Both the position numbers and the translations under genes were made by a program. Below the pieces are notes generated by a model, which saw nothing but the letters and a program-made list of their open reading frames with translations, did not search any database and was not told where the DNA came from. Shown piece after piece: positions 30,522-49,672 of a stretch of 49,903 nt of DNA. The first letter of the stretch is position 1; every line of letters starts with the position of its first letter. This DNA comes from an uncultured bacterium (GTDB taxonomy: Bacteria > UBP6 > UBA1177 > JAKLFG01): positions 1 to 49,903 of the forward strand of contig CALMRE010000044.1 in the NCBI GenBank assembly GCA_937871295.1. Direction: 5' to 3'.

Positions 30522-30564
30522 TGGTGAATTCCCACAGCATCATCGCTTCCTGTTGGAGGTCTGT

Positions 30565-31554
30565 ATGGCTAAGGTAAGAAAAAGAATCAGCAATGCGTTG
30601 GCAACCTCCATATTATATAGATGTGCTAAAACCTGTTGCGTTTGCAAAATTCCCCAAAAGGCATTGCAAATTCATCACATAGATGAAAACACAGAAAACA
30701 ATGTCGAAGAGAATTTGGTAGCTCTTTGCCAAGACTGCCATGACGAGGCACATACAAATCATAGATTGTCCCAAAACCTTACGGAAGAACGATTGATAGC
30801 TTTTAAAAACAGATGGGAAGAGGAAATAGCCGAAAGAGCATCGGAAGCAATGCTCCCGCATTCGGATGGGATATCACAAGCAATGTGGACCTATGTAAAT
30901 CATCAATGGTTGCCGGAAATCATGAGGGCTAAACATGTTAGCTTTGATCCGGAAAGATTCTCGTTGTTAAGAGCAGAAAATTTAATTGATGAAGATGGTT
31001 TTCCGATATTTCAAACAGAACCTAGAGGTAGAGTTCTAGCCACCGTTTATGACCATTTTGATTGCGCGGATGCTCGACATCTCCATCTTATGTATATAGA
31101 TGCTGTTGATAAGCTCATTTTAAACTCAAATCCCATTGAACTTGGAGCAATTTGGAAGAAATCAGAAATGCGTTCAGTTTTGAATCCAGGAGCTTTGTGT
31201 TTCTGCATAAGAGGTTTTAGATTCAAAAGAATAGGGCGGAGAGAAAACAAAGAAGAAAACCGATTGGCTTATGCTCAATCCAAGGGTATCAGAATAGAAT
31301 TCCTAGTAAATACAAGACATATGTATGGCGACTCTTCGCTATATTTGCATTTTACTGGCAATAGCGTAGTTGCTGTATTGATGATAGTGAGAAACATTGT
31401 TACAGAAAATGGATTGCTTTTAATTCAGGCCACACCATTAGCCATGGGAACTGGATTTTCTTGCAGTGATTATAACTCGCCGTATGACTTACGGTACGGT
31501 TGGGCGACTGGAAATACTTTGCCACAGAATGATGGTGACGCTGAAGAGGATTAG
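30565..31554 (+). CDS. HNH endonuclease-domain protein
   Basis: 329 residues from the ATG at 30565 (TTGGAGG upstream). The N-terminal ~90 residues hold an HNH nuclease with zinc ligands: CCVCKIP...LQIHHIDENTENNVEENLVALCQDCHDEAH, so histidines and Asn are in place. The remaining ~240 residues (FDPERFSLLRAENLIDEDGF...YDHFDCADARHLHLMYID) are not recognised and may be a sensor or target-binding domain. AT-rich (about 40% GC), unlike neighbours; probably a transferred defence or mobile gene with the preceding Ala-rich gene. Confidence 0.82.
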   Translation: MAKVRKRISNALATSILYRCAKTCCVCKIPQKALQIHHIDENTENNVEENLVALCQDCHDEAHTNHRLSQNLTEERLIAFKNRWEEEIAERASEAMLPHSDGISQAMWTYVNHQWLPEIMRAKHVSFDPERFSLLRAENLIDEDGFPIFQTEPRGRVLATVYDHFDCADARHLHLMYIDAVDKLILNSNPIELGAIWKKSEMRSVLNPGALCFCIRGFRFKRIGRRENKEENRLAYAQSKGIRIEFLVNTRHMYGDSSLYLHFTGNSVVAVLMIVRNIVTENGLLLIQATPLAMGTGFSCSDYNSPYDLRYGWATGNTLPQNDGDAEED

Positions 31555-35322: not shown

Positions 35323-35349
35323 GATGGCCGTCGTTCTTTTACATCAACT

Positions 35350-35442
35350 CTCCGAGCCCGGGTTCCTGTAGCCGCTGTCGGTATGGATACCGGGACGATA
35401 AGGTATGGGGCGAAAGGCCCATGCCCCCTTTTGGAAAGGAGG
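35350..35442 (+). promoter_or_regulatory. Moco-riboswitch-like leader, divergent subtype (copy 1)
   Basis: Begins CTCCGAGCC, has TCCTGTAGCC, a stem capped by CGAAAG (ATGGG...CCCAT), and ends CCCTTTTGGAAAGGAGG. The skeleton matches the classical elements at 37165 and 46384. The AAAGGAGG at 35435-35442 is the ribosome site of the next gene and can pair with the first CTCC, so ligand-dependent hiding of the site (off switch) is inferred. Confidence 0.6.
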
Positions 35443-35447
35443 AATTC

Positions 35448-37079
35448 ATGACCAATGCTATCTTCAACCTGCCGGAATCCTACAATGAACCGACCTACGG
35501 CTATGCCCCCGGCACGAAAGAAAAGGCACTGCTGAAAGCGGAACTGAAAAAACAGTTCGAAGAGTGCATCGACATCCCGCTTATCATTGGCGGCAAAGAG
35601 CTCCGCACCGGAAAGACCCGGAATGTCGTCTGTCCCCACGACCACCGGCATGTTCTCGCGGTCTGCCACGAGGCCGGAGAGAGCGAAGTGCGCAGGGCGA
35701 TCGAAACGGCGCTGGCCGCCAAGCAACAATGGGAGAACACGCCGTGGGAGGACCGCGCGGCGGTGTTCCATCGGGCGGCAAGCCTCATCTCGGTAAAGTA
35801 CCGCTACATCCTCAACGCGGCGACGATGCTCGGCCAGTCGAAGAGCTGTTATCAGGCCGAGATAGACGCGACCTGCGAGACGGCCGATTTCTACCGCTAC
35901 AATGTCAAGTTCATGGAGCAGATCTACCGCAACCAGCCGATATCGGACCACCATGTGTGGAACCGGGTCCACTACCGGGCGCTGGAGGGGTTCGTTTATG
36001 CCGTGACGCCGTTCAATTTTACCGCCATCGGGGCGAATCTCCCCGCCGCGCCCGCCATCATGGGCAACACCGTCGTGTGGAAACCGGCATCCACTTCGCT
36101 CCTGTCCAATTACTATCTCATGCAACTCTACAAGGAGGCGGGGCTTCCCGACGGCGTCATCAACTTCGTACCGGGAAGCGGCGCGATGATATCGGGCATC
36201 GTGCTCGACGATCCGGCGCTCGCCGGGATACACTTCACCGGCTCGACCGGCGTGTTCAGATCGATGTGGCAGACGGTCGGCGCGAATCTTGCGAAATACC
36301 GCATCTATCCGCGACTCGTCGGCGAAACGGGCGGCAAGGACTTCATCTTTATGCACAACTCGGCCGATGTCGAAGAGGTGACGAGCGCCATTCTTCGTTC
36401 GGGGTTCGAATATCAGGGGCAGAAATGTTCCGCCTGTTCCCGGGTCTATGTGCCGCGCTCCCGATGGAAAGAAATGAGAGAAAGGCTGATCGTTCTGGTC
36501 GCGACCATCAAAGTGGGAGATGTGCTCGATTTCAGGAACTACATGAACGCGGTCATCGACGAGGCGAGTTTCGACAACACCATGCGGTATATCGATATCG
36601 CCCGCAAGTCGCCCGACGCGGAGATCGTCACCGGCGGCACCGGCGATAAATCGAAAGGCTATTTCATTCAGCCCACGATCATCGAGGCGAAGACGCCGCG
36701 CTTCATCACGATGGAGGAGGAGATATTCGCGCCGGTGGTGACGATATTCGTGTACGATGACGACAAGCTGGACGAAACCCTGAAACTGGTCGATTCGACC
36801 TCGCCCTATGCGCTGACGGGGGCGATCTTCGCGACGGATCGTCATGTGATCAACAAATTAAGCGACGCGCTTCCCAACGCGGCGGGCAACTTCTACATCA
36901 ACAACAAGCCGACCGGCGCGATGGTGGGGCATCAGCCGTTCGGCGGCGCCCGCGCCTCGGGCACCAACGATAAGGCGGGCAGTTTTCTCAACCTTATCCG
37001 CTGGACCAGTCCGCGCACGATCAAGGAATGCTTCACGCCGCCCCGGGTGTACGGCTACCCCTTCCTCGGCGAGGAATAA
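35448..37079 (+). CDS. pruA: L-glutamate gamma-semialdehyde (P5C) dehydrogenase-type aldehyde dehydrogenase
   Basis: 543 residues, the length of the ALDH4 (pruA/ALDH4A1) type. Rossmann and NAD features are clear (FNFTAIGANLPAAPAIMGN, HFTGSTGVF); the catalytic Glu is in LVGETGGKDF and the nucleophile is C327 in EYQGQKCSACSR. ALDH4 enzymes oxidise glutamate semialdehyde to glutamate with NAD+. The substrate-anchor segment (VGHQPFGGARASGTNDKAG) fits ALDH4. The gene sits between the formate dehydrogenase subunit genes and has its own Moco-riboswitch-like leader, odd for a flavin- and metal-free enzyme. Confidence 0.92.
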   Translation: MTNAIFNLPESYNEPTYGYAPGTKEKALLKAELKKQFEECIDIPLIIGGKELRTGKTRNVVCPHDHRHVLAVCHEAGESEVRRAIETALAAKQQWENTPWEDRAAVFHRAASLISVKYRYILNAATMLGQSKSCYQAEIDATCETADFYRYNVKFMEQIYRNQPISDHHVWNRVHYRALEGFVYAVTPFNFTAIGANLPAAPAIMGNTVVWKPASTSLLSNYYLMQLYKEAGLPDGVINFVPGSGAMISGIVLDDPALAGIHFTGSTGVFRSMWQTVGANLAKYRIYPRLVGETGGKDFIFMHNSADVEEVTSAILRSGFEYQGQKCSACSRVYVPRSRWKEMRERLIVLVATIKVGDVLDFRNYMNAVIDEASFDNTMRYIDIARKSPDAEIVTGGTGDKSKGYFIQPTIIEAKTPRFITMEEEIFAPVVTIFVYDDDKLDETLKLVDSTSPYALTGAIFATDRHVINKLSDALPNAAGNFYINNKPTGAMVGHQPFGGARASGTNDKAGSFLNLIRWTSPRTIKECFTPPRVYGYPFLGEE

Positions 37080-37106
37080 GGGAATATCCATAACGCTCCA
37101 TTTTCT

Positions 37107-37134
37107 TTGACACGGGCTTTGTTTTTAATATAGT
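37107..37134 (+). promoter_or_regulatory. promoter of the first formate dehydrogenase
   Basis: TTGACA (37107-37112), 16-base spacer, TATAGT (37129-37134): the best consensus match in this window. Start expected near 37141, just before the riboswitch. Confidence 0.7.
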
Positions 37135-37164
37135 TCGCGATGTTCCCGTTCCTTAAATAATTAA

Positions 37165-37260
37165 ACCCCCGAGCCTTCGATCCTACAGCGTTATGCCACG
37201 GTCGAAGGCCAATGGGCCGATACCGAAAGGTTACGGCCTCCCGCTTTGGAAAGGAGGTGC
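37165..37260 (+). promoter_or_regulatory. Moco riboswitch, classical form (before first FDH)
   Basis: CCCCCGAGCC, TCCTACAGC, then stem GGCCGATACC-GAAA-GGTTACGGCC with internal loop, CTCCC, TTTGGAAAGGAGG. This agrees with the Moco RNA motif as I remember it (GNRA-capped CCGAAAGG stem and GGAAAGGAGG end). Known members control Mo-enzyme, moa and transport genes. The start codon of fdhA is a further ~75 bases downstream, with its own GGAGGAG. Confidence 0.85.
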
Positions 37261-37336
37261 CTGTGGTTCCGGTCTTTTCCCCTGTACTCTCGAAATCATC
37301 GTCAAGTGGTCATACATTATTTCATCGGAGGAGCGC

Positions 37337-40021
37337 ATGAAGCTTATCATTAACGGAAAAGAGATCGTTGCCCAGCCCGGCATGACCGTGCTGGAGGCGG
37401 CGAAGGCCGGCGGGATCTACATCCCGTCGCTCTGTTATCATCCCCGCACCGGACAGGCCGGCAAATGCCGCGTCTGTGTCGTGGAGGTCGAAGGGATGCG
37501 CGGACTTCAGGTGTCTTGCAATTTGAAAGTGCAGGACGGAATGTCGGTGAAGACCAAGACCCCGCAGGTGCTTGCGGCGCAGAAACTGGTGGTCGACCTT
37601 CTGCTCGCGACGGGCAAACATGACTGTATCGCCTGCGAAAGCAACGGCAAGTGCGAACTGCAGGATGCCGCCTATTATCTGGGCATCGAACGCGCTCCTT
37701 TCAAGTATGACGACATCCATTACGCGGAAGGGGACAAGAGCGCTCCCTTCGTCCGGCTCGACAAGGACAAATGCATCTCCTGCGGCCGTTGTGTGGTGGC
37801 CTGCAATAATCAGGTGGTCAACGAGGTGCTTGATTTTGCCCAACGCGGATACCGGACCGAGATCGTCTGCGACGACGACAAGCCGATGGGCGATTCGTCC
37901 TGCGTCCAGTGCGGCGAATGTTCGCAGGTCTGTCCGGTCGGCGCTATCGTCGATGTGAAATCGGTCGGCAAGGCCCGTTCATGGGAAACAAAGGTCGTCC
38001 GCACCACCTGTCCGTACTGCGGCGTCGGCTGTCAGTTGGATCTCCATATGAAAGGCGATCAGATCGTGCAGGTCACCGGCACCGAAGAGGGGAGCCCGAA
38101 CAAAGGTAAGTTGTGCGTCAAGGGCCGTTACGGCTACGATTTCATCTATGCCGAGGACCGTCTGACCCATCCGCTCATCAAAGAGAACGGCGAGTTCAGA
38201 AAGGCGTCGTGGGACGAGGCGATCAACCTCGTCGCGTCGAAATTCAAGGAGGCCATCGACAAGTACGGTCCCGATTCGGTCGCCGGCGTGAGTTGCGCCC
38301 GCAGTATCAATGAAGACTCCTACAATATGCAGAAACTGTTCCGTGGGGTGTTCAAGACCAACAACATAGACCACTGCGCACGAACTTGACACGCCCCCAC
38401 GGTGGCCGGTCTGGCTGCCTCCTTCGGCTCGGGCGCGATGACCAACTCGTTCGGCGAGTTCGCAAAGGCGAAACTGATGCTCTGCATCGGGACCAACATG
38501 ACCGAGGCGCATCCGGTCGCCTCCTATTATGTCAAGCAGGCGGTGAAGAACGGCATGACCCTCATCGTCGCCGATCCGCGTAAACAGCGGCTGGTGAAGT
38601 ACGCGGAGCTGTTCGCGCAACTCAAGGTCGGCACCGATGTCGCCTTCCTCAACGGGCTCATGAATGTCCTTATCACCGAAGACCTCTACGATAAGGAATT
38701 CGTGGAAAAGAACTGCTCCGACTTCGACAAACTGAAAGAGACCGTCCTGAAATATACCCCGGAATACGCGGCGAAGATATGCGGCGTCGAACCGGAGATC
38801 ATCAGGAAGATCGCCCGAAAGATGGCGAGCGTGAAGCCGGGGGCGGTGTGCTACACGCTCGGCATCACCGAACACACCTGCGGCAAGAACAATGTCATGA
38901 GCGTCGCCAACCTGCAGATGCTGCTGGGCAACCTCGGCGTCGAATGCGGCGGCGTCAATCCGCTCCGTGGCCAGAACAATGTGCAGGGTGCGTGCGACAT
39001 GGGCGCTCTGCCCAATGTGTTCCCCGGCTATCAGAAGGTCGTCGATCCCGCCGCGCGCGAGAAATTCGAGAAGGCGTGGGGCGTTACCGGCCTTCCCGAT
39101 AAGAACGGGCTCATGATCCCCGACATGATGGCTGGTCTCGCCTCCAAGAAGGTCCGTGCCTTCTGGATATTCGGCGAGAATCTCGCCAATTCGGAACCGG
39201 ACATCCGCCATGTCGAGCATGAACTCGAATCGGCCGAATTCATCGTGGTGAACGACATTTTCCCCAACGAGACGACGAAGTTCGCCGATGTCATCTTCCC
39301 CGCCGCCGCATGGTGCGAGGATGAGGGGACCTTCACCAGCAGCGAACGCCGCGTCAACCGGGTGCGTAAGATCAAGGATGCGCCCGGCGAGGCGAAGCCG
39401 AACTGGTGGGTGTTCCAGCAGGTGGCCAAGGCGTTCGGTCAGGAATGGCCGTCGAACAGCGGCCCGGAGATATGGGACAACGAGGTTTCGAAACTGGCCC
39501 CGGCGCTCGGCGGCATAAAGTACGTGAGGATAGAGAAAGACGGCCTGCAGTGGCCCTGTCCGACCGCCGAGCATCCCGGCACCACCTTCCTGCACAAGGA
39601 GGGGAAGTTCACGCACGGAAAGGGTATATTCAAGGCGGTCGAGTGGACGCCGCCCGCCGAGGTGGAGGATGCCGAATATCCGTTCGTGCTCAGCACCGGC
39701 AGACGCCTTTCGCAGTACCACACCAGAACGCAGACCGGCAGGGCCGGCATGGATGCGATCTACAAGCGGGAGACCGCCGATATGTCGCCCGCCGACGCCG
39801 AGCGGCTCGGTATCAAGAACGGCGAGATCGTGCTGGTCAAATCGCGCCGCGGCGAGGTCAGGGTCCCGGCCCGCGTGACCGAAGAGGTGCCCAAGGGAAT
39901 GGTGTGGATGACCTTCCATTTCCGGGAAGGGAACGCCAACTGGCTCACCAACACCGCCTACGATCCCGAGACCCGGACGGCCGAATACAAGGCCTGCGCC
40001 GTCAATGTCGTCAAGTTGTGA
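37337..40021 (+). CDS. fdhA: selenocysteine formate dehydrogenase, catalytic subunit (first copy)
   Basis: 894 residues with one in-frame UGA (38387-38389) at codon 351, in the context NNIDHCART-U-H, the usual place of Sec in formate dehydrogenase. N-terminal NuoG-like part: [2Fe-2S] C33, C44, C47, C61; H95/C97/C100/C106; two ferredoxin clusters (C146-C156, C189-C199). Catalytic bis-molybdopterin part: CPYCGVGC [4Fe-4S] (C225, C228, C232, C260), Sec351, and molydopterin-binding C-terminus. It oxidises formate or reduces CO2. With the NuoEF fusion it forms an NAD-linked enzyme. The ATG at 37337 has GGAGGAG. Confidence 0.97.
38387..38419 (+). other. Sec UGA and bacterial SECIS hairpin
   Basis: UGA at 38387; hairpin GGTGGCC (38401-38407)/GGCTGCC (38413-38419) with apical loop GGTCT (38408-38412). 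The GGTCT begins 21 bases from the UGA, as in E. coli fdhF, whose loop has the same sequence. SelB binding is expected. Confidence 0.9.
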
Positions 40022-40074
40022 TCCTATTCACCCGGTCATGATATAAAGGTTTACATCGTTCTTTGACATTGACA

Positions 40075-40170
40075 ACTCCGATCCCGGGTTCCTGTAGCCA
40101 ATATCGGTATGGATACCGGGGCGATAGGGTATGGGGCGAAAGGCCCATGCCTCCCTTTTGGAAAGGAGGA
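40075..40170 (+). promoter_or_regulatory. Moco-riboswitch-like leader, divergent subtype (copy 2, before porin/mod operon)
   Basis: Nearly the same as the element at 35350: CTCCGATCCCGG, TCCTGTAGCC, GGTATGGATACCGGG, TATGGGGCGAAAGGCCCATG, CTCCCTTTTGGAAAGGAGG. It ends in the ribosome site of the porin gene, six bases before the ATG. No clear promoter of its own is seen in the 53 bases before it; read-through from fdhA is possible. Confidence 0.6.
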
Positions 40171-40175
40171 TTCTC

Positions 40176-41411
40176 ATGATCACGGTATCACGGAAGCTGT
40201 TGGCTTCCGTCGTGGTGTTCGGCGCGCTCGCCCTCGGGGCGCAGGAGACACCGGTCAAGGAAGAGGTTAAGAAAGAGTCGCGGAAAGAGGAGTCGTCGGT
40301 GCCCGATTGGGTTAAAAAGTTGGAGATCAAAGGGGACTTTCGATTCCGTTACCAGTACCAGAATTTCGAGGATGCGGTACAGGACGACACGCTGGAGCGC
40401 AATCGCCTTCTCTACCGCGCCCGGATCGGCCTCGACGCGGAGGTCAACGACTGGGCGAAGGTTCATTTCGGCATCGCATCCGGTTCGGCCGAAACGAAGA
40501 TATCGGAGAATATGCCGACACAGGCGCTCGGACAGGATGCCCGCACCTCCAATCAACCCTTCGACGATTTCTTCAGTCGCAAACCGCTCTGGATCGATCA
40601 TGCCTACGGGGAGATATCGCCGTGGAGTTGGCTGACCATCATGGGGGGCAAGATGAAGAATCCCCTGCATACCGCTTCGCAGTTGCTGTGGAGCGCCGAG
40701 GTTAATCCGGAGGGGGCCGCCGTCACCTTCGCCTACCCGATCATCGACGAATTGACGATCCTTGCCGATGCCGCCATTCTTGTTCTTGACGAGATAAAGG
40801 CGCTTGACGACCCTCTGCTGGCGGTGGCGCAGGTGGGGGCGGCGGTCACGGTGGACGATTTCGACGGGAAATTCGTGATCGGATACTACGACCCCATGTA
40901 TCTATACAACGCCGACAGCAACACCGCGCATGCACTGGAGATAAAAAAACTTATCCGGGAAGGCTATTATTGGAAAAATATTCAGGCGCTTTTCAATGTC
41001 GCCTATACCTTGGAAAAGAAATACCAGATCGGCCTTTTCGGTGAGATGACGGCAAATCTTTACGAGTTCAACGAAGAGGCTCCGTTGGGTGAAAAGGCCG
41101 ACGAAACATTGGCATGGCTCGTCGGGGCGAAGGGAGGCACCAAGGCGCTCAAGGATCTCGGCGATTTTCAATTGACGCTCGGCTATCGTCAGGCCGGTAT
41201 CGCTTCGTGGCTACCGCTTTTCAGCGAGCCGGTCGTTTTCAACGGAAAATTAAACGGAGAAGGGATCGACTTCAACGGGCAGGTCGGTTTTTACAAAGGA
41301 CTGTCGGCCGCCGTGACATTCAACTACTTCTGGACCAAGAATGCCGAATTCAACGCCGGCGAGACGGACAGCGATATCATCTTCATGCTCGATATGAACT
41401 ATAAGTTTTGA
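40176..41411 (+). CDS. putative outer-membrane porin of a molybdenum operon
   Basis: 411 residues: signal peptide (LLASVVVFGALALGAQ), short charged linker, then an amphipathic beta-rich domain with alternating aromatic residues (GDFRFRYQYQNFEDAV, VHFGIASGSAET, FTFNYFWTKN-like near the end) and a final strand DIIFMLDMNYKF ending in Phe, as outer-membrane beta-barrels do. The family looks like a 'putative porin' class. It heads the modA-DUF364-modB-modC-fmdE-fdhD run and shares its riboswitch-like leader, so I infer oxyanion or Mo/W import across the outer membrane. Confidence 0.8.
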   Translation: MITVSRKLLASVVVFGALALGAQETPVKEEVKKESRKEESSVPDWVKKLEIKGDFRFRYQYQNFEDAVQDDTLERNRLLYRARIGLDAEVNDWAKVHFGIASGSAETKISENMPTQALGQDARTSNQPFDDFFSRKPLWIDHAYGEISPWSWLTIMGGKMKNPLHTASQLLWSAEVNPEGAAVTFAYPIIDELTILADAAILVLDEIKALDDPLLAVAQVGAAVTVDDFDGKFVIGYYDPMYLYNADSNTAHALEIKKLIREGYYWKNIQALFNVAYTLEKKYQIGLFGEMTANLYEFNEEAPLGEKADETLAWLVGAKGGTKALKDLGDFQLTLGYRQAGIASWLPLFSEPVVFNGKLNGEGIDFNGQVGFYKGLSAAVTFNYFWTKNAEFNAGETDSDIIFMLDMNYKF

Positions 41412-41446
41412 GTGATGCTATGCGTGCACAACACGAGGAAAAAGTC

Positions 41447-42220
41447 ATGAAATATCGTTTTATGCTTCTTGCTCTCGCGTTCCTTTCTTTACTGCCGGGA
41501 TTTTCCTGTGCGAACAAAGGAACTGCCGCCGAACTGGCCGTGTCGGCCGGCGCGAACTTCACCGATGTGCTGAAAGAGTGCGCCGCGCTGTACGAGGCGG
41601 AGCATCCCGGCGCGAAGATCGTGCTGAATTTTGCCTCGACCGGGGTCGTTGCCCAGCAGATCATCGCCGGGGCGCCGGTCGATGTCTTTTTCTCCGCGAC
41701 GGAGAAACACGCGGAGATGGTCGCCGCCAAAGGGCTGGCCGTCGAAGGCTCGCGGAGGACCTTCCTTTCCAACGAGATAGTCGTGATAACGAGAAAAGGT
41801 CTGCGACACACGCTGTCCGACCCGGCGGGACTTCTTGCCGACGCGGTCAAGATCGTTGCGTTGGGCAGTCCGGAGAATCTCGCCGCGGGTATCGCCGCGA
41901 AGGAGGCGTTGGCCTTTCACGGTATTCATGAGAAGGTCGCGGAGAAAGCCGCCTACGGGGAAACGGTGCGGCAGGTCCTCGATTATGTCGTTCGCGGCGA
42001 GGCCGACGCGGGGATAGTGTTTTATACCGATTATCTGATAGCGAAAGAAAAGGTGGATCTCGCCTACACCTTTTCAAAAGAGTCCCATCGGCCGATCATC
42101 TATCCGGTCCTTGCCGTTACAGGCCGTCCGAACGAGCAAAAGGCGCTGGAATTCGTAGAGTTCCTTTCCTCGGAAAAGGCAAAGGGGATATTTACACGAT
42201 ACGGCTACCGGTTCCTGTGA
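41447..42220 (+). CDS. modA: molybdate/tungstate-binding lipoprotein ModA
   Basis: 257 residues from the ATG at 41447 (GAGGAAAAAG upstream). Lipobox PGFSC, then the ModA pattern: ELAVSAGANFTDVLKECAALYE, FASTGVVAQQIIAGAPVDVFFSA (oxyanion site), then GEADAGIVFYTDY. It binds molybdate or tungstate in the periplasm and hands it to ModBC. Which metal cannot be told from the residues seen. Confidence 0.95.
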   Translation: MKYRFMLLALAFLSLLPGFSCANKGTAAELAVSAGANFTDVLKECAALYEAEHPGAKIVLNFASTGVVAQQIIAGAPVDVFFSATEKHAEMVAAKGLAVEGSRRTFLSNEIVVITRKGLRHTLSDPAGLLADAVKIVALGSPENLAAGIAAKEALAFHGIHEKVAEKAAYGETVRQVLDYVVRGEADAGIVFYTDYLIAKEKVDLAYTFSKESHRPIIYPVLAVTGRPNEQKALEFVEFLSSEKAKGIFTRYGYRFL

Positions 42221-42240
42221 TGCTTTCGAGGGAAGGTAAG

Positions 42241-43008
42241 ATGCGCGACAATGCGATACTGACCGAAGCGGTCGTCAGGCTGAAAAAGATGCTGACGGCC
42301 GATCAACCGCTCCTCGACCTGCGCATATCGGTACGGGCCGTCTGTCTGACCCCGGAGGAGGCGATAGGAAATCCGATGCGGAGGGATTATCCGATCATCG
42401 AGGGGAAAGAGCGGGTCATTGAGGCTACCGTACTGCACAGCAAGGGACAGGCGTTCACCGATGACCCCGGCGAGTTCACCGGCACCGTGCAGGAGATATT
42501 CGATCTCGATCTCTCGTCCAACCGGAACCGCGCCATCGTCATCGCCGCGATGAACGCCCTGCTTGGTCATCGCGGACTGGTCGACGGCACCGTTCATTGC
42601 AGAAATGAAGACCCGGAAAAATGTTCGAAAGAGATAGCCCTCCATATTTTCGAGAAATTCGGCCGTGTCACGGTGGGATTGATCGGTCTGAATCCGGCGC
42701 TGTTGGAAGCGCTCGCGAACACCTTCGGCGCGGAACGGGTCCGCGCAACCGATCTCAACCGGAAGAACATCGGAACCGTCAAATACGGCGTCGAGATAGG
42801 GGACGGTCGCGAACGGACCGAGGATATGGTCCGTTCATCGGATATCCTTCTGATCACCGGGACCACGCTGGTGAACGGCACCCTCGACGGTATTTTGGAT
42901 CTTGTCGCCCGCTACGGGAAGAACTATCTGCTGTACGGCACGACCATTGCCGGCGTCGCCCGGCTCAGGGGACTCGACCGTATCTGTCCGTATGCGAGGA
43001 ACGGTTGA
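42241..43008 (+). CDS. DUF364/DUF4213 Rossmann-like, putative heavy-metal chelation protein
   Basis: 255 residues from the ATG at 42241 (GAGGGAAGG upstream); a GTG/ATG at 42217-42220 is possible. The domain order fits DUF4213 followed by DUF364: IIEGKERVIEATVLHSKGQAFT, VIAAMNALL, VTVGLIGLNPALLEALAN and LLITGTTLVNGTLDGILDL. DUF364 proteins are described as putative metal-chelation proteins but have no proven function. Here it lies between modA and modB and its stop overlaps the modB start (TGATG), which ties it to molybdate or tungstate handling. Confidence 0.82.
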   Translation: MRDNAILTEAVVRLKKMLTADQPLLDLRISVRAVCLTPEEAIGNPMRRDYPIIEGKERVIEATVLHSKGQAFTDDPGEFTGTVQEIFDLDLSSNRNRAIVIAAMNALLGHRGLVDGTVHCRNEDPEKCSKEIALHIFEKFGRVTVGLIGLNPALLEALANTFGAERVRATDLNRKNIGTVKYGVEIGDGRERTEDMVRSSDILLITGTTLVNGTLDGILDLVARYGKNYLLYGTTIAGVARLRGLDRICPYARNG

Positions 43009-43670
43009 TGGGCGCGATCTCCTTTCCCTTGATCCTTTCGCTCAAGGTCGCCCTGTGCGCCACCTTTCTGGCCGCTCTTTTCGGTATCGCGGTCGGCTAT
43101 TTCATCTATGCGCGGCACTTCGCCGGGAAGGAGATACTGGATACGCTGATCACCGTTCCGCTCGTACTGCCGCCTACCGTGACCGGCTTGTACCTGATGT
43201 ATGTGTTCGGCAGGAACGGGCTTATCGGGTCTTTTATCTACGACCTCACCGGCATGTCGATCATGTTCTCGTGGCAGGCCGCCGTATTGGCCTCCTTCGT
43301 CGTCGCCGTACCGATAACCTTCAAGACCACCCGGACCGCCTTCGAGGCGGTCGACAAGAATCTCATAGAGATATCTTATGTGTTGGGGAAGAGCGAGAGC
43401 AAGACCTTTTTCACCATCATTTTTCCCCTCGCGTGGAAAGGTATCGCGTCGGGCCTCGTGCTTGCCTTCGCGCGGGCGCTGGGCGAATTCGGCGCGACCT
43501 TGATGCTGGCGGGAAATATTGAGGGGAAAACGAACACCGTGCCGCTCACGATTTATTCTCTGGCGACATCGGGAAAAGAATACGAGGCCCATATCCTCGC
43601 CCTGATCTTCACGGTTTTCTCCTTTGTGTTTCTCTATACGGTGAAAAAACTGGGGCACCGGCATGCTTGA
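43008..43670 (+). CDS. modB: molybdate ABC transporter permease ModB
   Basis: 220 residues with six membrane segments. The EAA loop is FARALGEFGATLMLAGN, specific for ModB/WtpB/TupB-like permeases. PLVLPPTVTGLYLM is also typical of ModB. Start overlaps the DUF364 stop; stop overlaps modC by eight bases. Confidence 0.95.
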   Translation: MGAISFPLILSLKVALCATFLAALFGIAVGYFIYARHFAGKEILDTLITVPLVLPPTVTGLYLMYVFGRNGLIGSFIYDLTGMSIMFSWQAAVLASFVVAVPITFKTTRTAFEAVDKNLIEISYVLGKSESKTFFTIIFPLAWKGIASGLVLAFARALGEFGATLMLAGNIEGKTNTVPLTIYSLATSGKEYEAHILALIFTVFSFVFLYTVKKLGHRHA

Positions 43671-44385
43671 GGCGAAACTGGTCCGCACCTTTAAGAATTT
43701 TTCTCTGGATGTCGATTTCAAGGTGGGAAAAGGGGTGAACATCTTTTTCGGTTTCTCGGGATGCGGCAAGACGATCACCCTGCGGATGCTCGCCGGTCTG
43801 GACCGGCCCGACAGCGGTCAGATAAAGACCGGCGGGAAGACGATCTTCGACAGCGCGCAAAAGATAGATGTCCGGCCGCAGCATCGGCGCATCGGCTATG
43901 TGCCGCAGCAGCCGTCGCTCTTTCCGCATATGAGCGTCGAGCGCAACATCCGGTACGCCGCGGACGCTTTGTCCCCGGAGGAGCGGAAGGAAACGCTGGA
44001 ACACCTGCTCGAGATATTCAGATTGAAAGAGCTGCGGAGCCGTTTTCCCCATCAACTTTCGGGCGGTCAGAAACAGCGGGCGGCGGTGGCGCGGGCGGTG
44101 GCTTCGAAGCCGGCCTATCTCCTGCTCGACGAACCGTTCAGTTCCCTCGACAGCCTCATCCGGCGGAAGATGTGCCGCTGCATAACCCATTCGGTGTACG
44201 AAAAACTCGGCATACCGATCATCATGGTGACCCACGATGCGACCGAGACGCTCGATTTCGACCAGCTCTTTGTCTTTTCAAACGGGCGGATCGTCAAAAG
44301 CGGCCCGCCGAAAGAACTGAAGCCTCTGCTCGCCGAGATGCTGGGGCCGTTGCGCTTCGACAATCCGTTCACCGGCGAAAAATAA
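43663..44385 (+). CDS. modC: molybdate ABC transporter ATPase ModC (short)
   Basis: 240 residues. Walker A GFSGCGKT, ABC signature LSGGQKQRAAVARA, Walker B LLLDEPFSSLD and H-loop VTHDATE are present. The ~110-residue C-terminal MOP/TOBE domain of E. coli ModC is missing, so no feedback oxyanion binding by this subunit is expected. Energises import with ModB. Confidence 0.95.
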   Translation: MLEAKLVRTFKNFSLDVDFKVGKGVNIFFGFSGCGKTITLRMLAGLDRPDSGQIKTGGKTIFDSAQKIDVRPQHRRIGYVPQQPSLFPHMSVERNIRYAADALSPEERKETLEHLLEIFRLKELRSRFPHQLSGGQKQRAAVARAVASKPAYLLLDEPFSSLDSLIRRKMCRCITHSVYEKLGIPIIMVTHDATETLDFDQLFVFSNGRIVKSGPPKELKPLLAEMLGPLRFDNPFTGEK

Positions 44386-44403
44386 CCACGAGGGAGTAGT
44401 GTC

Positions 44404-45000
44404 ATGAGTGCGAATTTGAATGAAACGCTCATTTGCGGCCATCCGCTTGAAGAGTACGAGGCGATGATCGAAAAGTTCCACGGCAACCGGGCGCCCGGCT
44501 TGATCATCGGCGGTTTCATGGTCGATCTGGCGCAGAAGAATCTGCCGAAAGGGGAACTGTTCGATGTGATCTGCGAATCGATGAAATGCCTGCCCGATGC
44601 GGTGCAGGTGCTTACCCCCTGTTCCATCGGCAACGGCTGGCTCAAGATACTCAAGATCGGCAGATTTGCGTGCACCTTCTTCGACAAACATACCGGCGAC
44701 GGGGTGCGGGTCTATCTCGATACCGATAAGATGAAGAACTATCCCGAGATATACAACTGGTTCTTCAAGGTGACCCCGAAGCATGAACAGGACGGAGAGG
44801 CGCTGATGAGACAGATCAGGTCGGCGGGGGCGGCGATCCTGTCCGTAGAGAAAGTGAAGGTCGATCCCGAGATATCCAAAAAAGAAAAGGGCTCCAAGAT
44901 CGCCGTCTGTCCGGTCTGCAACGAAGGCTACCCGGCGAAGCACGGTGAAAAATGCCGCATTTGCAGCGGAGAGATAAACTATCTGATGAAGAGCTCATGA
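44404..45000 (+). CDS. FmdE-like protein
   Basis: 198 residues; FmdE domain followed by a C-terminal zinc ribbon (CPVCNEGYP...CRICSG). The N-terminal FmdE motif, usually FHGHxCPG, is FHGNRAPG, so the Cys/His metal ligands are lost, while the second motif (CLPDAVQVLTPCSIGNGWL) is present. FmdE proteins were named for formylmethanofuran dehydrogenase but are common next to molybdate transport and formate dehydrogenase genes; role unproven. Starts 18 bases after modC and overlaps fdhD (ATGA). Confidence 0.87.
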   Translation: MSANLNETLICGHPLEEYEAMIEKFHGNRAPGLIIGGFMVDLAQKNLPKGELFDVICESMKCLPDAVQVLTPCSIGNGWLKILKIGRFACTFFDKHTGDGVRVYLDTDKMKNYPEIYNWFFKVTPKHEQDGEALMRQIRSAGAAILSVEKVKVDPEISKKEKGSKIAVCPVCNEGYPAKHGEKCRICSGEINYLMKSS

Positions 45001-45827
45001 TGAAGAGCGCCGCGATAAAGGAAGATTTTCCCGTCGTGCAGTTCGATACCGGCGGGGTCGAGGTGAAATTGTGGGAAGAGACCAAGTCGGTGGTCGGCGA
45101 GATATCTCTGAAGATCATGATCAACGGCGTCGATTATGCTTCTCTGTTGTGTGTCAATCAGTTCCAGAAAGAGATGGCGCTTGGTTTTCTCTACAATGAA
45201 GGGGTCATAAACGGTTGGTCCGATGTCAAGAACATCGATTTCAACGAAGGTCACTTTACGGTCGCGGTCGAACTGAACGAACGGCTGAATCTCACTGTGG
45301 GCGATAGTTTCAGGAGCGTGACATCGGGCTGCGGGAAATGTTACACCTACATCAAGCCGACCTATCGCGATCTGTATGTCGCGAACACCTCCGATAGCCG
45401 TTATGAATTGAAGAGGATAACGGACCTGATGAAAGAATTCAATCGGGAGCCGCCTATCTTTAATGCGTTCGGCGGGGTGCATGCGGCCAAATATGTCGGG
45501 GAGGGTTTCAGCGTGCTGGTCGAAGATATCGGCAGGCATAATTGCATAGACAAGATCGCGGGTATTCTGCTGTCGGAAGGGAAGGGGAGGTCGGGGGGGA
45601 TGATGCTGGTGAGCGGCAGGATATCTTCCGAGATCGTTACCAAGATCGTGCGGATGGGCGTTCCCCTGATCGCTTCCCGCTCCACGCCGACCATTCCCGC
45701 GCTCAAACTCGCGGAGCAGTACGGTATCACGCTGCTCGGGTATGTCCGTGAAGGGCGCGGGGTGATATATGCCGGGAAAGAGCGTATCGAAGAGGTTTTT
45801 CGGATGTCGGACCCGAATAAGAACTAA
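44997..45827 (+). CDS. fdhD: formate dehydrogenase sulfurtransferase FdhD
   Basis: 276 residues. The conserved TSGCGKC motif holds the cysteines that carry sulfur in this family, usually seen as CGxC. The Rossmann-like second half has AAKYVGEGFSVLVEDIGRHN and MMLVSGRISSEIVTKI. FdhD moves sulfur from IscS to the molybdenum cofactor of formate dehydrogenases and is needed for their activity. It ends the riboswitch-led operon and precedes the second FDH. Confidence 0.96.
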   Translation: MMKSAAIKEDFPVVQFDTGGVEVKLWEETKSVVGEISLKIMINGVDYASLLCVNQFQKEMALGFLYNEGVINGWSDVKNIDFNEGHFTVAVELNERLNLTVGDSFRSVTSGCGKCYTYIKPTYRDLYVANTSDSRYELKRITDLMKEFNREPPIFNAFGGVHAAKYVGEGFSVLVEDIGRHNCIDKIAGILLSEGKGRSGGMMLVSGRISSEIVTKIVRMGVPLIASRSTPTIPALKLAEQYGITLLGYVREGRGVIYAGKERIEEVFRMSDPNKN

Positions 45828-45846
45828 CAGAAAGAAGGAGGCGCGG

Positions 45847-46302
45847 ATGAACGGATCGGTCTACAGAAAAACACTGGTGATGGCGGTGAGCAACGAGATC
45901 GAGGCCCACGATTTCTACGAGGCGGCGGCGGCCAAGACCGCCAACAAGGCGCTGAAGTCGATCTTCGTGGAACTGGCGGGCGAGGAGTTGAAGCACAAAC
46001 TCCTGCTCGAATCGTTCCTTGCCGACGGCGGCAAAAAACTGCAGTTCGCCGAAACGGCCGACTACAAGATCTCCGAGACGGTGGAACTGCCGAAACTGAC
46101 CGTCGGGATGAGTTTCGTGGAGGCCATTGCGCTGGCCATGAAGAAAGAGGAAGAGGCGATGAAGATGTACCGCAAATTCGCCGACGCCAGTTCTTCCCCC
46201 GAGCAGAAGGAGACCTTCCTCCAACTCGCCCGGATGGAGCAGGGACATAAGGCCCGGCTGGAGGCGCTCTATACCGACACCGCATACGCCGAGGCGTGGT
46301 GA
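45847..46302 (+). CDS. ferritin-like (rubrerythrin-type) diiron protein, copy 1
   Basis: 151 residues, four-helix bundle with metal ligands in NEIEAHDFYEAAAAK, AGEELKHKLLLE, KKEEEAMKMYRKFA and RMEQGHKARLE, i.e. paired E..ExxH motifs. No rubredoxin domain. GAAGGAGG site. Expected to bind a diiron centre and detoxify peroxide or oxygen. It lies between fdhD and the second FDH; a close paralogue lies on the other side of that FDH. Confidence 0.9.
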   Translation: MNGSVYRKTLVMAVSNEIEAHDFYEAAAAKTANKALKSIFVELAGEELKHKLLLESFLADGGKKLQFAETADYKISETVELPKLTVGMSFVEAIALAMKKEEEAMKMYRKFADASSSPEQKETFLQLARMEQGHKARLEALYTDTAYAEAW

Positions 46303-46334
46303 TGATCCAATAAATTCGGTATCTTTGAAAATAT

Positions 46335-46363
46335 TTGCCTCTTACAGAGCCTCCGTATATACT
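46335..46363 (+). promoter_or_regulatory. promoter of the second formate dehydrogenase
   Basis: TTGCCT (46335-46340), 17-base spacer, TATACT (46358-46363), start near 46370, just before the riboswitch. Confidence 0.55.
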
Positions 46364-46383
46364 CCTTTTGCTTTGTTTTTCAT

Positions 46384-46476
46384 CCCCCGAGCCTTTCGAC
46401 CTACGGCAGGGCGCTATGGTCGAAGGCCAATGGGTCGCTACCGAAAGGTTACGGCCTCCCGTTCGGAAAGGTGGTG
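46384..46476 (+). promoter_or_regulatory. Moco riboswitch, classical form (before second FDH)
   Basis: CCCCCGAGCC, CCTACGGC, GGTCGCTACC-GAAA-GGTTACGGCC stem, CTCCCGTTCGGAAAGGTGG, close to the copy at 37165. Between it and the ATG, AGGTC (46481-46485) can pair with GACCT (46506-46510), which would cover the GGAGG of the gene. An alternative GTGA/TCAC hairpin (46474-46477/46484-46487) excludes that pairing, a plausible expression platform. Confidence 0.82.
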
Positions 46477-46511
46477 ATGTAGGTCACTAGTTTCAGAACG
46501 GAGGCGACCTC

Positions 46512-49193
46512 ATGCAGATCACGATCAACGGAAAGATCGTCGAGGCCCAAGCGGGGCAGACCATCCATCGGGCGGCCAAGGCGGCCGGTATCTACATCCC
46601 GACGCTGTGTTACCATGAAAAGGTCGGCGCGGCCGGCAAATGCCGCGTCTGCGTCGTCGAGATCGAAGGAAGCCCCGCGCTCCAGACCGCCTGTTCGGTC
46701 GAGGTGCGCGAGGGAATGAAGATCCAGACGCGGACCGAGCGGGTACTCAACTCACAGAAACTGATCGTCGACCTGCTCCTTTCGACCGGCACCCACGACT
46801 GCCTCGCCTGCGACCAGAACGGCTCCTGCGAACTGCAGGATGTCGCCTACTATCTGGGCATGGAGCGCGGATCGTTCAAGTACGCCGATGTCGAGAGCGT
46901 GAAAGACGACAGTTCCGAATTTATTTCGGTCGAGCGGAGTAAATGCATTTCCTGCGGCCGCTGCGTCGCGGCGTGCAACAACACGGTGACCAACCGCGTG
47001 CTTGATTTCAAATACCGCGGTCACAAGGCCGACATCGCCTTCGACGACGACAAGCCGATGGGCGAATCCTCCTGCGTGCAGTGCGGCGAATGCGCCCAGA
47101 TCTGTCCGGTGGGGGCGCTTACCGACAAACTTTCCAAAGGCAGGGCGCGTCGCTGGGATGTCGAGAAGGTCTATTCGGTCTGTCCCTACTGCGGCGTCGG
47201 CTGCAAACTGGAACTCCATGTCGACCGCAAGACCGACCGGATCGTCCGCGTCACCGGCGCCGAGGGTGCCCCGACCAATAACGGGATGCTCTGCGTCAAG
47301 GGTCGCTACGGCTACGATTTCGTCGGTCATCCCGACCGCCTGACCACCCCGCTCATCAAGGAGAACGGCAAGTTCCGCGAAGCGTCGTGGGACGAGGCGA
47401 TAACGCTGGTCGCGACCAAATTCGCCGAGATAAAGCAGAAGCACGGCGCCGACACCATCATGGGGCTCTGCTCGGCGAAGGTGACCAACGAAGAGAACTA
47501 CACCTTCCAGAAACTGTTCCGCACGGGGATCGGCACCAACAACATTGACCACTGCGCACGACTCTGACACTCCTCCACGGTGGCCGGTCTGGCTGCCTCC
47601 TTCGGTTCGGGCGCAATGACCAACGACATCGCCGGTCTGGACAAGAGCGATGTGGCTCTCATCATCGGTTCCGATACCTCCGAATGTCATCCGGTCATCG
47701 CCGCGCGTCTCAAAAAAGCGGCGATGGACGGCAAGGTGAAGATCATCGTCATCGATCCCAAGCGGATCAAGATGGCCGATTTCGCGACCATCTACGCTTG
47801 CCAGCGGCCCGGCACCGATGTCGCGGTCCTCAACGGCATGATGCATCTCATCATCAAGAACGGCTGGGAGGACAAGAAGTTCATCGAAGAGCGTACCGAG
47901 GGGTACGAGGCGCTCAAGGAAGAGGTCGCCAAGTTCACCCCCGAGTATGTCGAGAAGATATCGGGCATCCCCGCCAAGACGCTTGAGGAGATCGCCGAGT
48001 TGTTCGGCAAGGCCCCGACGGCGGCGCTCTACTACGCGATGGGGATCACCCAGCACACCACCGGCGTCGACAATGTCAAGTCGACCGCGAACCTTCAGAT
48101 GCTCTGCGGCAACATGGGCAAGGTGGGCGGCGGCGTCAATCCTCTGCGCGGCCAGTCCAATGTGCAGGGCGCCTGCGACATGGGCGGCCTTCCCAATGTA
48201 TTCCCCGCCTATCAGAAGATCGGCGATGCCGCGGTGCAGGAAAAGTTCGAGAAATTCTGGGGCGTGAAACTGAGCGACAAACCGGGCATGACCATGACGG
48301 TCGCCTTCGACAAGGCCCACGCGGGTGAGATGAAGGCGTTCTACATCATGGGCGAGAACCCGATGGTATCGGACCCCGACCTCCATCACGCCGAAGAATC
48401 GCTGAAGAGACTTGAGTTCCTCGTCGTGGAGGATATCTTCATGACCGAAACGGCGCAGATGGCCCATGTCGTTCTCCCGGCCTCGTCGCCCGCCGAGAAG
48501 GACGGCACCTTCAGCAACACCGAACGGCGCGTTCAGCTTCTGTTCAAGGCGGTGAACGCCCCCGGTCAGGCGAAGCACGACTGGGAGATCCACCAGATGA
48601 TCGCCAATAAGATGGGACTCAACTGGAACTACACGAAGGCCGAAGAGATCTTCGATGAGATGCGGAAGTGCACCCCCTCCTACGCGGGGCTGACCTACAA
48701 GCGGCTCGGTTTCGCCGGTATGCACTGGCCCTGCCCGAACGAGGAGCATCCCGGTACGCCGGTCCTTCACATCGGCAAGTTCTCCCGCGGGCTCGGGCTG
48801 TTCACGGCCATCCCGTTCAAGGAACCGGCCGAGATGCCCGACAAGGACTATCCGTGGTATTTCACCACCGGGCGCGTCCTTCAGCAGTACCACACCGGCA
48901 CCATGTCGCGCAAGACCCCGGGGCTCAACAACCTCGCCGGTCCCCATGTCATGATATCGGTGGAGGACGCCGAGGCGCTCGGCATATCCAACAGCGGCAA
49001 GGTCAAGGTCTCGACGCGGCGCGGTTCGCTGATCACCAACGCCTTTGTGACCAAGCGCTGTCCGAAGGGAACGGTGTTCATGCCCTTCCACTTCGCCGAA
49101 GCGGCGGCGAACAAACTGACCATCAACGCGCTCGATCCGATCGCGAAGATACCGGAATACAAGGTCTGCGCCTGCAAGATAGAAAAGGCGTAG
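46512..49193 (+). CDS. fdhA: selenocysteine formate dehydrogenase, catalytic subunit (second copy)
   Basis: 893 residues with an in-frame UGA (47565-47567) at codon 352, context NNIDHCARL-U-H. Same domain order as the first copy: NuoG-like [2Fe-2S] (CYHEKVGAAGKCRVC), His-Cys3 cluster (HDCLACDQNGSC), two ferredoxin clusters (CISCGRCVAACN, CVQCGECAQICP), CPYCGVGC cluster and the molybdopterin domains. The two proteins are similar but diverged through the C-terminal half. No NuoE/F gene accompanies this copy; it may share the fusion at 33514 or use a different acceptor. It is flanked by two ferritin-like genes and followed by selC. Confidence 0.97.
47565..47597 (+). other. Sec UGA and SECIS hairpin of the second FDH
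   Basis: UGA at 47565; stem GGTGGCC (47579-47585)/GGCTGCC (47591-47597) with loop GGTCT (47586-47590), 21 bases after the UGA. The hairpin is identical to that of the first copy. Confidence 0.9.
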
Positions 49194-49225
49194 CGGAGAA
49201 CATCAACCGATAAGGGAGTATGTCC

Positions 49226-49672
49226 ATGGATATGATCAAGATACTGCGGATGGCGGTGAACAACGAGGTCGAGGCGCACGATTTCTACGATGGCGCGGCG
49301 GCCAAGACCACCAACAAGTCGCTGAAGTCGATCTTCGTGGAACTGGCGGGCGAGGAGCTGAAGCATAAACTCCTGCTCGAATCATTCCTTGCCGACGGCG
49401 GAAAGAAACTGCACTTTGCCGAAACGACCGACTACAAGATCGCGGAAACGGTGGAGCTGCCGAAACTGACCGTCGGGATGAGTTTCGTGGATGCCATCGC
49501 GCTGGCCATGAAGAAAGAGGAAGAGGCGATGAAGATGTACCGCAACTTCGCCGACGCCAGTTCTTCCGCCGAGCAGAAGGAGATGTTCACCCAACTCGCC
49601 CGGATGGAGCAGGGGCACAAGGCCCGCCTTGAAACGCTCTACACCGACACCGCCTTCGTCGAGGCGTGGTAG
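49226..49672 (+). CDS. ferritin-like (rubrerythrin-type) diiron protein, copy 2
   Basis: 148 residues, about 85% identical to the copy at 45847 with all metal ligands kept (NEVEAHDFYDGAA, GEELKHKLLLE, KKEEEAMKMYRNFA, RMEQGHKARLE). The ATG at 49226 suits the GGGAG site better than the one at 49220. It starts 32 bases after the second FDH stop, so the two are probably cotranscribed. Inferred role: protection of an oxygen-sensitive enzyme, or iron supply. Confidence 0.9.
   Translation: MDMIKILRMAVNNEVEAHDFYDGAAAKTTNKSLKSIFVELAGEELKHKLLLESFLADGGKKLHFAETTDYKIAETVELPKLTVGMSFVDAIALAMKKEEEAMKMYRNFADASSSAEQKEMFTQLARMEQGHKARLETLYTDTAFVEAW

Follow-up and report, generated by a model that had tools for sequence, protein, structure and literature searches.

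The stretch of DNA analyzed here (the window) comprises positions 1–49,903 of contig CALMRE010000044.1 (assembly GCA_937871295.1) of an uncultured bacterium of the phylum UBP6, whose genome comprises 3.45 Mb in 271 contigs. Within 11 kb, four leaders resembling the riboswitch for the molybdenum cofactor (Moco) precede, in this order, a gene for an NAD-type L-glutamate gamma-semialdehyde dehydrogenase (P5CDH), a formate dehydrogenase (FDH) gene, a molybdate/tungstate uptake operon starting with an outer-membrane porin, and a second FDH gene (Table 1). The original prediction had joined these leaders into a candidate cofactor regulon with two sequence subtypes, which would either read the same cofactor with opposite output or separate the molybdenum from the tungsten cofactor (Tuco). 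We refer to the leaders by the first position of their aptamers, 35338, 37155, 40066, and 46373.

A cmscan search against Rfam 15 matched the Moco/Tuco aptamer family RF01055 at exactly four places in the window, all on the + strand and all covering the full length of the model (positions 1–135), with 52.3–61.8 bits compared with a gathering score of 36 bits. The limits of the aptamers are shifted by ∼10 nt relative to the start positions initially assigned. The two leaders 35338 and 40066, which had been set apart as divergent, match significantly with 52 and 58 bits, near the values of the supposedly classical pair. Stem P3 is absent in all four (model columns ∼59–72 are gapped in each alignment), and in each of them P4 is capped by a GAAA loop and P2 contains a tetraloop receptor of the form CCU...AUGG or ...ACGG, the receptor strand varying between CCUGUAG, CCUACAG, and CCUACGG. 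When the 18 homologous RNAs known from seven of the phylum's genomes are aligned, 85.6% of the pairs are standard and the motif covaries strongly: 70 cells are doubly changed versus a shuffled mean of 25 (0/500), a signal that collapses if the alignment is slid by a single column. The outer helices of P2 together with P4 are 90–98% paired, and 13 pairs show double changes; P1 is 72% paired without double changes, and the inner part of P2 is 67% paired. Intrinsic terminators, for which all four window leaders were searched, were not found. Judged by these sequence features, the leaders are ordinary P3-less Moco/Tuco aptamers, that is, riboswitches of a known kind, and the proposed regulon is borne out.

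Table 1. Riboswitch leaders, regulatory elements, and genes of the locus.
Feature	Position	Strand	Basis and remarks
Moco/Tuco aptamer, aldehyde dehydrogenase leader	35338..35456	+	RF01055 52.3 bits, E 9.4e-10; P3-less
P1 strands of the 35338 leader	about 35348-35353 and 35438-35443	+	
Ribosome-binding site AGGAGG within the P1 3′ strand	35437..35442	+	Sequence; P1-paired in minimum free energy (MFE) fold
P5CDH, ATG 35448	35448..37079	+	TIGR01236 770 bits, cut-off 614
Moco/Tuco aptamer, formate dehydrogenase 1 leader	37155..37273	+	RF01055 61.8 bits, E 1.5e-12; P3-less
Formate dehydrogenase alpha subunit 1 (FDH1), in-frame TGA (selenocysteine) 38387-38389	37337..40021	+	
Moco/Tuco aptamer, porin/mod operon leader	40066..40183	+	RF01055 58.2 bits; P3-less
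Outer-membrane porin Porin_5, ATG 40176, first gene of the molybdate/tungstate uptake operon	40176..41411	+	PF16930
ModA-like binding protein, DUF364 protein, ABC permease, ABC ATPase	41408..44385	+	
FmdE and FdhD (formate dehydrogenase accessory)	44404..45827	+	
Moco/Tuco aptamer, formate dehydrogenase 2 leader	46373..46489	+	RF01055 58.8 bits; P3-less
Alternative hairpin locking ribosome site GGAGG (46500-46504)	46446..46510	+	-31.8 kcal/mol
Formate dehydrogenase alpha subunit 2 (FDH2), in-frame TGA (selenocysteine) 47565-47567	46512..49193	+	
tRNA-Sec	49748		cmscan

The two subtypes are real sequence families that share a single architecture and do not form separate classes. Identity is 90% between 35338 and 40066 and 81% between 37155 and 46373, versus 0.51–0.55 between the pairs (45–49% of positions differ). 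Most of these differences are compensated helix changes or fall into the P2 receptor strand, and the two families have 22 invariant columns in common. In a tree of 18 aptamers, the 35338/40066 sequence type is restricted to the window's own family. The FDH leaders group with leaders of aldehyde oxidoreductases (AORs), P6CDHs, and P5CDHs from other families of the phylum, and several of these neighbors have their ribosome site in P1. Since FDH-type aptamers are therefore also found on aldehyde dehydrogenase (ALDH) leaders with a P1 ribosome site, the subtype reflects ancestry and does not set the output, contrary to what had been suggested; the tree rules it out as the determinant of sign.

Regulski et al. 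2008 (PMC2408646) assigned the members of the class that contain P3 to Moco and proposed Tuco for those that lack it; P3 is the only feature proposed to track molybdenum versus tungsten. By this criterion all four leaders belong to the tungsten-type group, and the genome encodes three matches to the tungsten enzyme family AFOR (PF01314). In favor of subtypes that sense different cofactors, Moco and Tuco, the pairs differ over nearly half of their positions and in the receptor strand (CCUGUAG versus CCUACAG/CCUACGG). However, P3 is missing from every leader, the invariant core columns are common to both families, the changes mostly compensate each other within helices, and genes are used in a mixed fashion in relatives, where the ALDH family is fronted by either subtype. 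We therefore consider a separation of Mo from W by the two subtypes very unlikely.

In 35338 and 40066, the 3′ strand of P1 is the AGGAGG ribosome site itself, and the ATG follows 10–11 nt past the start of this strand. Cofactor-dependent repression has been shown for moaA of E. coli, which also has its ribosome site in P1 (PMC2408646), and by analogy both leaders are predicted to be OFF switches. The P5CDH controlled by the first of them is an enzyme without Mo/W cofactor. The only uptake binding protein encoded in the window, to which the search for tupA and wtpA was confined, is of the ModA type. The DUF364 protein within this operon (42217-43008) belongs to a family linked to heavy-metal chelation, and a 46% identical homologue is encoded directly 3′ of another Moco RNA (L086).

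In line with the original prediction, the leaders 37155 and 46373 precede putative selenocysteine-containing FDHs: each gene forms one frame if its single internal TGA is read as selenocysteine, and the tRNA-Sec lies on the same contig. At 46373, the ribosome site of FDH2 can pair with the 3′ strand of aptamer stem P4, P5, and the P1 junction. The resulting hairpin has a z-score of -4.5 with 0/200 shuffles as stable (z -4.4 in a repeat run), and among swapped ribosome sites only 1/41 pairs with this aptamer as well as the native one. Because aptamer and lock are mutually exclusive, ligand binding should free the ribosome site, and this folding model predicts an ON switch. In 37155, the start codon is located 64 nt 3′ of the motif. 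We found neither a terminator nor an unusually stable lock (z +1.5) in this leader; its ribosome site could match P2 over 8 bp, or a hairpin could compete with P1, and neither of these beats the controls. ON is nevertheless the favoured sign for 37155. The idea that one cofactor is read with opposite output is thus supported as the better of the two initial proposals, by two predicted OFF leaders and one predicted ON leader. Two encapsulin-cargo/ferritin-like proteins are encoded 5′ (45769-46302) and 3′ (49220-49672) of the second FDH gene.

To our knowledge, OFF is the only sign that has been established experimentally for the Moco riboswitch family. All four leaders could accordingly be OFF switches that, as is usual, spare the cell apo-enzyme or uptake for which it has no need, with the FDH leaders using some other OFF platform and the ALDH having another role in Mo/W metabolism. 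Such uniform repression would agree with E. coli moaA (PMC2408646) and with the missing platform of 37155. Nevertheless, formation of the aptamer at 46373 would release the ribosome site from a strong lock, and the platforms of distant leaders described below also speak against repression of FDH and AOR genes.

Our collection of the phylum consists of 28 genomes, seven of which contain the 18 Moco RNAs. AFOR enzymes are present in 7/7 of these genomes versus 3/21 of the others (p=1e-4). In 6/7, an ALDH gene or cluster begins with a Moco RNA whose P1 contains the ribosome site; the gene or cluster encodes either P5CDH (the window's genome, G001, G002, and G015) or P6CDH-P5CDH (G022 and G018). 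In G001, G004, and G022, a gene for a ∼735-residue AOR related to solved AORs lies 3′ of a separate Moco RNA whose ribosome site is distal. The genes for AOR, moeA, and P5CDH are neighbors in the sister genome G001, where AOR and P5CDH each have their own Moco leader. The window's genome encodes an AOR of this subfamily that is 91% identical to a sister AOR.

Outside the window, the genome contains a fifth Moco RNA (contig C134, 47.2 bits) with a lipoprotein/TonB-receptor operon 3′ of it (L006:1570-7242). Lipoprotein and/or TonB-dependent receptor genes are also located 3′ of Moco RNAs elsewhere (L028, L029, L030, L031, and L034; in other phyla L096, L101, L104, L120, L128, and L156), and are candidates for taking up molybdate/tungstate or a metallophore across the outer membrane.

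For a wider sample we used 386 genomes, mostly of other phyla, of which 78 contain Moco RNAs; 91 RNAs from outside the phylum were taken with 4 kb of downstream sequence and the next genes were read. Four of the 91 (L091, L105, L151, and L163) precede a P5CDH that is 55–61% identical to that of the window and lies above the TIGR01236 cut-off. They belong to three family-level lineages (f133, f144 twice, and f34), so that together with the phylum itself the ALDH association occurs in four lineages. The ∼735-residue AOR subfamily is present in all four outside genomes (59–63% identical) as well as in the phylum. Among the 14 Moco-RNA genomes outside the phylum that encode a true TIGR01236 P5CDH, the gene carries a Moco leader in 4/5 genomes with this AOR versus 0/9 without it (p=0.005). 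A Moco leader is not a general property of P5CDH genes: with a model that recovers all four distant positives, such a leader was found at only 1/80 named P5CDH loci of GTDB genomes, and this locus again derives from the phylum studied here; at 20 mostly anaerobe loci searched with Rfam there was none (0/20).

Cofactor control of P5CDH could also serve a purpose other than isozyme exchange, for example if its pathway feeds an electron economy of FDH and hydrogenase. The leaders of G022 and G018 indeed front P6CDH-P5CDH-HydB/hydrogenase-like clusters, and a NuoF/HydB-like gene is located just upstream in the window. Such a role seems doubtful to us, because the leader tracks one AOR subfamily and because in two genomes the first gene of the cluster encodes P6CDH, an ALDH from a different subfamily. 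Separately, two Moco RNAs (L124:301-2261 and L130:453-4119) lie 5′ of other ALDHs in genomes with three AFOR enzymes; one of these ALDHs weakly resembles archaeal lactaldehyde and glyceraldehyde-3-phosphate dehydrogenases, and they could represent another tungsten/NAD enzyme pair.

The expression platforms of distant leaders differ between the two groups of genes. In the P5CDH leader L091, the 5′ arm of a terminator can instead pair with the 3′ end of the aptamer (-23.3 kcal/mol), and in L163 an anti-ribosome-site element pairs with a P1 strand when this strand is free; both arrangements were assigned as OFF. In the AOR leaders L173 and L040 and the FDH leader L172, the 5′ arm of the terminator is the 3′ strand of P1, so the aptamer would prevent termination (ON). 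In three further AOR leaders (L134, L122, and L165), the ribosome site pairs with the P4/P5 segment of the aptamer, as at 46373; of the three, L134 alone is a clear pass in the shuffle test (0/200). The gene is driven from a P1 ribosome site in 6/12 ALDH leaders versus 0/16 AOR/FDH leaders (p=0.0025). Taken together, the ribosome sites of AOR/FDH genes pair better with their own aptamer than those of lipoprotein and ALDH genes (p=0.0014), and the modelled opening of the ribosome site upon P1 closure is greater for AOR/FDH than for ALDH leaders (p=0.0012). The folding model is crude, and shared ancestry keeps these group tests from being independent; the comparison of P1-forced with P1-free folding is biased and was kept only as a group comparison. 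Taken together with the lock at 46373, the P1-sharing terminators on AOR and FDH genes and the absence of P1-driven genes among the 16 AOR/FDH leaders make it unlikely that all four window leaders are OFF switches.

Among leaders with distal genes, a P1 ribosome site with a normally spaced ATG of a short open reading frame (ORF) occurs in 18/79 cases compared with a background of 8.9% (p=1.6e-4); examples are L006, L028:14896, L090, L120, L124, L130, L146, L147, and L151. In L124 and L130 the short ORF encodes a conserved peptide of 22 residues that ends with Tyr-Pro-stop; the short ORFs of L146 and L151 also end with Pro-stop. It is possible that these ORFs 3′ of P1 encode leader peptides.

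Based on these observations, we regard P3-less aptamers with platforms of opposite sign, combined with a switch between aldehyde-oxidizing isozymes, as the probable explanation of the locus. If the cofactor, probably the tungsten cofactor and possibly Moco, is plentiful, P1 would close over the ribosome site of the P5CDH and porin/mod leaders, and translation of P5CDH and of the uptake operon would stop. At the same time, the aptamer of FDH2, and probably that of FDH1, would form at the expense of the ribosome-site lock and permit translation. AOR and FDH, which are useless without the cofactor, would thereby be made when it is present, and the uptake genes would be under ordinary feedback. 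As long as it has the cofactor, the cell would use the tungsten AOR; when the cofactor is missing, it would express the NAD-linked P5CDH, which needs none. We also think it rather likely that one riboswitch class runs such a cofactor-gated exchange in several distant lineages, with AOR and FDH switched on and the replaceable P5CDH switched off. With similar likelihood, this exchange would make use of at least four platforms: a ribosome site in P1, a terminator/anti-terminator, an anti-ribosome-site relay, and a ribosome-site lock.

Several points weigh against this isozyme switch. AOR and P5CDH both belong to aldehyde-oxidizing families and may not share a substrate, and the association is known from few lineages (four) and small samples. 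Opposite output is suggested by sequence and folding, from which we infer the ligand and the effect on expression. An OFF platform was assigned in L091 and L163 and in neither of the ALDH leaders L105 and L151, just as 37155 lacks an identified ON platform. For four of the seven leaders with a P1 ribosome site (35338, 40066, and the ALDH leaders of G001 and G002), the P1-folding model does not clearly close the ribosome site when P1 forms, so that their OFF sign rests on layout and on the E. coli example. Enforcing P1 biases the model toward opening distal ribosome sites, and most AOR leaders except L134, L040, and L173 pair their ribosome site with the aptamer weakly or in a generic manner obtainable with any CCUCC segment. 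Finally, the P5CDH leader L091 (L091:301-440) contains P3 although its genome encodes the tungsten AOR subfamily, and by this sequence the P3/tungsten rule is not strict.

At some distance from the leaders, the window contains an unannotated ORF (30553-31554) that weakly matches the IscB/ZorE nuclease region.

If correct, the isozyme switch would give Moco/Tuco riboswitches a second physiological role, the choice between metal-dependent and metal-free enzymes. It predicts a common aldehyde for the ∼735-residue AOR subfamily and the glutamate-semialdehyde dehydrogenase, and with the opposite-sign leader pairs from one organism, simple reporters could test whether P3-less RNAs sense Moco or Tuco. 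In the open-access literature we found no paper tying the Moco riboswitch to an aldehyde dehydrogenase, and from the sequence comparisons the recurrent ALDH/AOR association appears to be the new part.

The RNAs themselves have the same core as the described Moco/Tuco riboswitches (RF01055; PMC2408646), with P1, P2, P4, and P5, the GAAA loop, and the P1 ribosome site. The P3-less variant linked to the tungsten cofactor, several copies per genome, and translation- as well as transcription-type platforms within one organism have already been reported (PMC2408646). What differs here is the target set, which extends to an aldehyde dehydrogenase without the cofactor, and the assignment of opposite signs to the platforms of cofactor-free and of cofactor-dependent enzymes. 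A precursor of the idea was given in one sentence for S. wolfei, where P3-less Moco RNAs are located 5′ of putative sulphite oxidases and repression by Tuco was suggested where a Tuco-using alternative exists (PMC2408646); that case is about a putative Moco enzyme instead of one that is free of the cofactor, and came without a comparative test. The closest parallel in logic is the cobalamin riboswitch acting on metE/metH pairs, which represses the cofactor-independent isozyme if the cofactor of the dependent isozyme is available (PMC9600662). Here, too, a cofactor-free isozyme is under riboswitch control in genomes with a cofactor-dependent counterpart (4/5 versus 0/9), but RNA class and cofactor are different, and the cofactor-dependent enzymes can carry a leader of their own, with a predicted opposite sign.

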